A program made the position numbers and the translations under genes. The notes beneath the pieces were generated by a model. It saw only the letters and a list, made by a program, of their open reading frames with translations, had not been told where the DNA came from and made no database searches. A stretch of DNA of 64,000 nucleotides from Candidatus Saccharimonadota bacterium (GTDB taxonomy: Bacteria; Patescibacteriota; Saccharimonadia; Saccharimonadales; Saccharimonadaceae): positions 1 through 64,000 of the forward strand of contig JAFRMK010000010.1 of assembly GCA_017430725.1 (NCBI GenBank). The letters run 5' to 3'. Below, piece after piece: positions 31,129 to 51,527 of this stretch; positions within the stretch are counted from its first letter, which is position 1; every line of letters starts with the position of its first letter.

Positions 31129-31157
31129 TTGACGTATAAAATAATCTGTGTTATTAT
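31129..31157 (+). promoter_or_regulatory. Near-consensus sigma-70 promoter of ncRNA
   Basis: TTGACG (31129-31134), 17 nt, TATTAT (31152-31157). Predicted start about 31164, just before the first hairpin of the RNA. Confidence 0.8.
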
Positions 31158-31163
31158 TAGGAC

Positions 31164-31458
31164 AGTTTTGATTGCGCAAGCATCAAAAAACCGCACCTAA
31201 ATAACCAAACAATGTTGGTTCTACCAGCATTTGTTGCGGGCTTTAGAAAAGCTTTCAGCCTTCAAGTTTCTTATCGGCTTGAAGTGAAAAGTATTACCTC
31301 CACTTAGAAAGATGTTTTCTAAAGCTAGCAACCCCTTTAACCGGCGGGCCCAATTGAATTGTGAGGTGGGTCACGCTTCCGATTGACCGGTACCGGAGAG
31401 GTGTGTTAAAGGGCCAAAAAGCCCACAGGTGATGCCCACCCTTACCTGTGGGCTTTTT
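31164..31458 (+). ncRNA. Structured non-coding RNA, about 295 nt, unidentified
   Basis: An AT-rich gap with its own promoter and terminator but no convincing reading frame on the plus strand. Helices visible by eye: 31166-31172 with 31182-31188, capped by a GCAA tetraloop; 31191-31195 with 31235-31239, enclosing hairpin 31203-31220; 31240-31250 with 31315-31325 (11 bp), enclosing 31260-31266 with 31278-31284 (7 bp); 31333-31341 with 31405-31413 (9 bp), enclosing 31369-31373 with 31384-31388; and a terminator 31416-31430 with 31444-31458 (15 perfect bp, ending in TTTTT). I checked for hallmarks of RNase P RNA, tmRNA and SRP RNA and found none. A single-stranded ACCTCC (31296-31301) matches the 16S anti-Shine-Dalgarno sequence. 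Confidence 0.75.
31416..31458 (+). terminator. Terminator of the 31-kb ncRNA
   Basis: 15-bp perfect stem starting AAAAAGCCC and closing with GGGCTTTTT, loop of 13 nt. Confidence 0.9.
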
Positions 31459-50589: not shown

Positions 50590-51480
50590 CTAGTCCAGGC
50601 TGACTAATCTGTATTTTGTCGAACCAAGCCCCAAACTCTCGGCATACTCGGTGATATGTCGCCCTTCTCGTGACTCAATTCGCTCTTTTATCGCCGCCGT
50701 CCCCGGTTCCTCTGTCGCCCAAATTGCATCCAGAAAAGCCTGGTCGTTGGCTACCGGGTCAAGACTGGCAAAAATGCCAATATCGCCTATCACTGGGTCG
50801 CCCTGCTTTGAGTCGCAGTCACAATCCACCGATATCGCGTTCGCCACGGTGATATAAACAATCGGTTTCCCTTTCTCGGCGAAATAATCTGCCACCGCCT
50901 TGGCCGACTCCGCCATCGACTCGATGAAGTCCTTCTGTGCGTGCTTGTGCTGCCAACACAAAACCGGATTCTTCGTATGCCCACAACTGTGAATATAGGC
51001 TTTACCGTGCCGTGAAGCCACGCCAATCGACTGATTCTTCAGATTAGCGCCAAAACCACCCATCATATGCCCCTTGCCGTGCGCCAAATTCACCATTGCA
51101 TCATAATCGTCAAGATGCGTTCCGACGATGTCATACTCAAGATGCTGGCCATTTTTCACCGGAATCTTCATTTCGCCCTCCGCGTCCATGATGTCCACTT
51201 CGGCAAAATCCATAAAGCCGTGCGCTTCCGCCACTTTTAAGTGTTCCGCTGTTTTCGTCCGCGCACCAGGATAAGAGGTGTTACACTCAATAATTGTGCC
51301 GTTCAAACTCTGCACAAAAGGCGCAATCAATTCCTTCTTCAAGTACCCCCTCGCGCCCTGTTCCCCTGTTGAGACCTTCACGCCAATCTTGCCCGTCAGC
51401 TGAACACCCAAGGCTTCGTAAGCCTTTTTTAGTCCCGCTGGCGAAATATCCTTCGTAAAAAACACTTCTGCTTCAGCCAT
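50590..51480 (-). CDS. DUF362 family protein
   Basis: A 296-residue cytoplasmic protein of the DUF362 family (family residues around KVSTGEQG, GTIIECNTSYPGAR and the Gly-rich VNLAHGKGHMMGGFGANLKN). Many DUF362 proteins carry ferredoxin clusters; here the Cys residues (SCGHTKNPVLCW and VDCDCDSKQGDP) could bind a metal or cluster, but the standard CxxCxxCxxxCP arrangement is absent. Function unknown. It has a leader of about 20 nt with Shine-Dalgarno GGAGGT and its own terminator. Confidence 0.8.
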   Translation of the reverse strand: MAEAEVFFTKDISPAGLKKAYEALGVQLTGKIGVKVSTGEQGARGYLKKELIAPFVQSLNGTIIECNTSYPGARTKTAEHLKVAEAHGFMDFAEVDIMDAEGEMKIPVKNGQHLEYDIVGTHLDDYDAMVNLAHGKGHMMGGFGANLKNQSIGVASRHGKAYIHSCGHTKNPVLCWQHKHAQKDFIESMAESAKAVADYFAEKGKPIVYITVANAISVDCDCDSKQGDPVIGDIGIFASLDPVANDQAFLDAIWATEEPGTAAIKERIESREGRHITEYAESLGLGSTKYRLVSLD

Positions 51481-51527
51481 ATTACCTCCATCTTATATTT
51501 TTATTATAGCAAAACTAAACACCAAAA

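Follow-up and report, generated by a model that had tools for sequence, protein, structure and literature searches.

The window, the whole 64,000-nucleotide stretch of Saccharimonadota DNA analysed here, contains in the gap between pth and topA a region that almost certainly encodes a stand-alone structured RNA, with its own promoter, five or more helices, and an intrinsic terminator (Table 1). The promoter boxes lie where the original prediction placed them, as does every other feature whose coordinates it listed, and TTGAC-N17-TATAAT-like boxes are kept at the homologous loci of the window genus and of the order Saccharimonadales. Transcription of the gene is predicted from these letters. 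The start of topA is approximately 65 nt downstream of the RNA, with the terminator in between. The homologues share no conserved coding frame, since they differ by indels of any length and by compensatory changes. The initial view of the region as a structured RNA without a credible gene is borne out by the homologues, their covariation, the fold energy, and this lack of a frame.

Table 1 Features of the RNA gene and its promoter in the window.
Feature	Position	Strand	Basis or remark
Promoter TTGACG-N17-TATTAT	31129-31157	+	TTGACG 31129-31134, 17-nt spacer, TATTAT 31152-31157
RNA gene	31164-31458	+	Start inferred from -10 box and first conserved positions; end is the terminator U-run
5' hairpin, GCAA loop in window	31166-31188	+	Change on both sides in 5 of 9 pairs, genus
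Unpaired conserved segment containing CGCACCTAAATAA (GYACCTTATACCCCC in the order)	31189-31203	+	Comparison of homologues
Hairpin B	31211-31231	+	Change on both sides in 6 of 8 pairs
Long helix C	31233-31332	+	Homologous helix covaries in other genera
Helix C, segments	31233-31237/31328-31332, 31239-31250/31315-31326, 31252-31256/31307-31311	+	
Helix C, side arm	31260-31268/31276-31284	+	
Loop hairpin AAGU-(AUUACCUCC)-ACUU	31289-31305	+	Loop is 31293-31301
Domain D, closed by 9-bp P1	31333-31413 (P1 31333-31341/31405-31413)	+	Covariation
Domain D, helix P2	31343-31351/31368-31377	+	Covariation
GGTGGGT, proposed pseudoknot strand toward terminator loop	31365-31371	+	Complementarity
Terminator hairpin (loop TGCCCACCC, 31433-31441, invariant) followed by T-run	31416-31458	+	Stem covaries

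The minimum free energy of the RNA folded as a single sequence is -108.4 kcal/mol, compared with -80.5 +/- 5.6 kcal/mol for shuffled sequences (z -4.96), and none of 100 shuffles reached a value as low. The 11-bp helix of the original prediction is exact, GCTTTAGAAAA at 31240-31250 being fully complementary to TTTTCTAAAGC at 31315-31325, and so is the 9-bp closing helix formed by CCCTTTAAC and GTTAAAGGG (P1). The first hairpin carries its GNRA cap in the window; however, the genus does not conserve this cap. The first 15 pairs of the terminator stem (31416-31432/31442-31458) are perfect, as had been claimed, but beyond acting as a stop signal the hairpin belongs to the conserved structure of the RNA. 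Not all minor helices of the fold predicted from the single sequence are supported by the homologues; 31379-31381/31388-31390, for example, is paired in only 54%. A pairing of the 5' CGCACC with GGTGTG (31400-31405) reaches 7 bp in the window, fails in several genera, and is not claimed.

The homologous gaps of other Saccharibacteria, whose comparison the original prediction had proposed, hold the RNA, and compensatory changes in it are abundant. In 27 sequences of the whole RNA of the window type, 37 of 98 pairs have changed on both sides, compared with 15.2 in shuffles, none of which was as high among 500, and with 7-17 when the structure was slid along the alignment. The structure compared was taken from one of these 27 sequences, which favours it in the proportion of paired cells, though not to such an extent in the double changes. 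The 3' domain with the terminator, compared in 22 sequences from several families, has changes on both sides in 15 of its 32 pairs (7.5 in shuffles, with none of 500 as high, and 3-5 in slid structures). Paired letters occupy 97.6% of the cells of this alignment. The long arm has double-sided changes in 10 of 16 pairs among family-level sequences, with 96.9% paired, and in 11 of 21 pairs among distant families. In some distant homologues (L270, L272, L139, L131, and L141), an extra hairpin separates domain D from the terminator hairpin. Across most of the order (L112-L151), GTTAG is flanked by two CTAAC segments and can pair with either, so that an alternative fold is possible; of these pairings, only the second is retained in the window genus, as GTTGC/GCAAC.

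Homologues were detected by DNA search in 59 of 101 genomes, which include 42 of the 45 genomes of the window genus (its own among them), most of the family, and members of two further families; these loci have the promoter, the terminator, and the loops in common. A covariance model of the 3' domain and terminator (R1; 129 positions and 28 pairs, built from 22 sequences) matches 137 of 198 Saccharimonadales genomes, with exactly one match in each. In a sample of 380 genomes from the phylum, R1 matches 29, all of them Saccharimonadales, and none of the approximately 348 phylum genomes outside the order, under strict filters that weak relatives could escape. The 12-mer TACCCTCCACTT occurs in 12 of 15 order genomes missed by R1, and inspection of these loci revealed the RNA in 11; the reversed control pattern gave one match over 20 genomes. 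The 12-mer is absent from five genomes of other orders of the same class. Taken together, the model and the loop motif place the RNA in no fewer than 34 families out of 37 sampled. The RNA is present as one copy per genome throughout Saccharimonadales and was not found outside the order in the sampled genomes. A pattern scan of named genomes retrieved at least 118 stretches, and nearly all among the matches listed are labelled Saccharibacteria or carry an unspecific label. Three listed stretches labelled Chloroflexi, Parcubacteria, and Nomurabacteria (L153, L154, and L209) match the model, and their RNA loci adjoin dprA or pth and der, like those of other homologues. Therefore, these metagenome-assembled genomes are probably mislabelled Saccharibacteria. 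A viral collection contained no match to the RNA.

The setting between pth and topA, noted from the start, is true of the window; however, it is peculiar to the window genus and does not hold for the order. At 41 of the 53 loci inspected in other genera, the upstream gene is divergent and, judged from its sequence, DprA-like, and the downstream genes are mostly pth and then der, in convergent orientation. Most of the homologues from the first DNA search have pth nearby, with topA at a varying distance or out of reach. The pth-RNA-topA order is a rearrangement within the window genus. The short distance to topA in the window and the terminator that precedes it would fit a leader or attenuator of topA or of another downstream gene, but throughout most of the order the RNA is flanked by convergent pth and divergent dprA, with topA elsewhere, and no alternative antiterminator was seen. 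Synteny gives the RNA neither a constant position nor a constant orientation upstream of topA, as a cis-leader would have. Because both vary across the order, control of topA in cis is not the general function of the RNA, and the leader reading is extremely unlikely.

No family of Rfam release 15 matches the region in the window at its gathering score. At E-values up to 10, the RNA has only chance matches, the best of which by bits is His_leader (24.1, cut-off 49), and 12 distant homologues have no family match for the RNA at a permissive E-value. The Rfam search that had been suggested as a check thus returned no family for the RNA at either threshold, and scans that took in the unmasked rest of the genome yielded only chance matches to it. 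The absence of RNase P, tmRNA, and SRP hallmarks was also confirmed, with no model match. RNase P RNA class A (RF00010) has no match in the window and is encoded by a separate gene at G000:C7:25065-25417 (251 bits); tmRNA (RF00023) does not match the RNA either, and its true gene is at G000:C7:28374-28742 (76 bits).

Two housekeeping RNAs require closer comparison. Neither a small SRP RNA nor 6S RNA (RF00013, E up to 10) was found in the genome outside 72 kb of contig C10, and the RNA could be one of these, or another known housekeeping RNA absent elsewhere in the genome, in an extremely derived form. However, even permissive thresholds give no 6S or SRP match to it. Few known RNA elements are as conserved as domain IV of SRP RNA, and neither this motif nor a model match is present in the RNA or in 12 distant homologues. 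SRP RNA (RF00169, RF01854) is a housekeeping RNA that, in some bacteria, resembles the RNA in length. The likeness to 6S RNA lies in the class of single-copy stand-alone regulatory RNAs; by contrast, the RNA is 300-450 nt long, lacks the rod that closes the 5' and 3' ends of 6S RNA, and has a terminator domain with a predicted pseudoknot. Furthermore, the 72 kb of contig C10 outside the search may hold the missing genes. A derived SRP or 6S RNA is therefore very unlikely. Motifs of the SRP GTPases Ffh and FtsY were not found in the genome outside the same 72 kb by pattern search alone.

The RNA shares with the Rfam families as a whole that it is a structured bacterial RNA, and none of them matches it. 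OLE and raiA are large lineage-specific RNAs, which are long and complex and whose function is not obvious from sequence. The RNA is likewise long, complex, and restricted to a lineage; however, the Rfam scan covers families of this kind and reports none of them here. The RNA fits no known RNA family and is thus new at the family level, whereas large lineage-specific RNAs are an already-known kind of thing. No description of it was found in the open-access literature. Elsewhere in the order, a match resembling a type III hammerhead ribozyme was noticed in a Saccharimonadales genome (L119:3134-3191; 35.4 bits, E 0.0005, Rfam cut-off 48.5).

The loops of the RNA are more constant than its stems. 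Of 139 RNAs of the longer form found in the order, 135 have UACCCUCC as loop C, while the stems change; the pattern used to collect these RNAs omitted most of the window genus. The columns of the terminator loop GCCCACCC are invariant in the covariance-model matches and in alignments A1 and A2, the rows of which were cut with GCCCACCC as the anchor; its constancy in the 139 RNAs is uninformative, because GCCCACCC was required for their collection. In 97% of these RNAs, a segment of the adjoining domain is complementary to the terminator loop over at least 7 bp, compared with 2.3% of mononucleotide shuffles. The terminator hairpin is therefore part of the structure of the RNA. In the window genus, the loop has GAGGTGGGTCACGC as its partner strand, and most families have GGGTGGGTT, beside P1. 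Since both strands are complementary to the loop and lie in different places, the pairing appears to be kept though the strand moves. The terminator-loop pseudoknot is a prediction from complementarity, and both of its sides are nearly invariant, so that covariation cannot test the pairing.

The best explanation of the whole, somewhat favoured, is a single-copy stand-alone structured non-coding RNA that would act as follows. It would be expressed from a sigma-70-type promoter of its own and end at its own terminator hairpin. Its fold, shown by covariation, consists of a hairpin at the 5' end, a small second hairpin, a long arm that displays UUACC(C)UCC as a C-rich loop, and a 3' domain with a predicted pseudoknot, formed by the pairing of the terminator loop GCCCACCC with a GGGUGGG-type strand. 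A bound partner, either a protein or another RNA, would recognise the invariant C-rich loops. The last of these steps, a housekeeping-type RNA working through a bound partner, has a little less than an even chance of being correct. It is suggested by the occurrence of the RNA across the order in single copy, its own promoter, heavy structure, invariant loops, and the predicted pseudoknot of its terminator domain; the differing place of the terminator-loop partner strand between families is a counterpoint. Such an RNA, near-universal, single-copy, and heavily constrained in an order of ultrasmall epibionts and without an Rfam family, is a strong candidate for a core function overlooked by annotation. 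Its importance is directly testable in cultured, tractable relatives: a genetic system and Tn-seq exist for a Saccharibacterium, and Southlakia epibionticum is cultured and genetically tractable (PMC10633639).

The invariant loops could alternatively be explained by pairing in trans with mRNAs. RNAIII and LhrC are small RNAs with CU-rich loops, and, by analogy, the RNA might regulate particular mRNAs through its several C-rich loops and unpaired stretches, one of the loops being in the terminator hairpin. Unlike those of RNAIII and LhrC, the loops are invariant across the order, which is unusual for small RNAs that target mRNAs, and a partner for the terminator loop exists within the RNA. One perfect 10-nt complement of an RNA loop, GGAGGTAATA, lies on the reverse strand at 51480-51489 of the window, at the start of a 296-residue open reading frame, but matches of this kind are within chance expectation. 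Exact loop complements were rejected as a guide to targets, as their genome-wide number is at the chance level. A regulator of particular mRNAs is thus distinctly unlikely, and the partner-bound RNA remains the preferred reading.

The loop of helix C bears on one further interpretation. The original prediction noted that ACCTCC (31296-31301) is unpaired and identical to the anti-Shine-Dalgarno core. This segment does lie in an apical loop, and the identity extends to nine letters: the loop AUUACCUCC (31293-31301), closed by AAGU/ACUU and invariant in the genus, is identical over 9 nt to the 3' tail of the 16S rRNA of this genome. The 3' end of this 16S rRNA is GGAUGGAUUACCUCCUUUCU, also given as GGAUUACCUCCUUU, where the usual form is GGAUCACCUCC. 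At L326:7152-7298 (reverse strand), this end reads GGATTACCTCC in place of the canonical GGATCACCTCC. No canonical 3' end in a 16S context was found in seven related genomes. The chance that the tail and the RNA as a whole share a 9-letter match is approximately 1-4%, according to our own estimate from a rough 9-mer count. An unpaired copy of the 16S tail is present in the window genus; however, the loop in most of the order, UUACCCUCC, contains one extra C, and the likeness to the anti-Shine-Dalgarno core stands only in part.

A displayed copy of the 16S tail might serve as an anti-Shine-Dalgarno decoy, which would bind Shine-Dalgarno leaders or titrate factors that bind the 16S tail, and would shift translation between leader-led and leaderless mRNAs. 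The presentation of nine nucleotides of GGAUUACCUCCUUU in a closed hairpin loop speaks for such a decoy, as does the use of two nearly exclusive types of translation start by the genome. A Shine-Dalgarno-like element precedes 32% of 477 open reading frames, compared with 6.9% of internal ATGs, and a -10 box lies 3-9 nt before the first ATG in 21% (102 of 477), compared with 1.5% of internal ATGs; only three of the 477 have both. Because the two types are nearly exclusive, a decoy RNA could distinguish two translation classes. However, the genome outside the RNA has two exact complements of the loop, which is no enrichment but about the number expected by chance, and the loop differs outside the window genus. 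The decoy is therefore unlikely. Its extension to the whole order, with the RNA as a 16S-tail mimic that would sort leader-led from leaderless translation, for example in a switch between attached and free cells, is quite improbable. How these bacteria govern their two life stages is an open question; according to a perspective, it is not known how differentiation is controlled in Patescibacteria, and translational regulation is probably key (PMC11665869). As context, Saccharimonadia are almost without Era and RbfA, which are 30S biogenesis factors (PMC12641178).

Boxes close to the start codon are also common in the window itself. In the window, a TATAAT-like box is present 3-9 nt before the start codon in 18 of 43 open reading frames, compared with 5 of 352 internal ATGs; examples on the forward strand are the ATGs at 237, 3508, 4307, 9523, 27581, and 30495. 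Such a box in this position is a mark of leaderless mRNAs.
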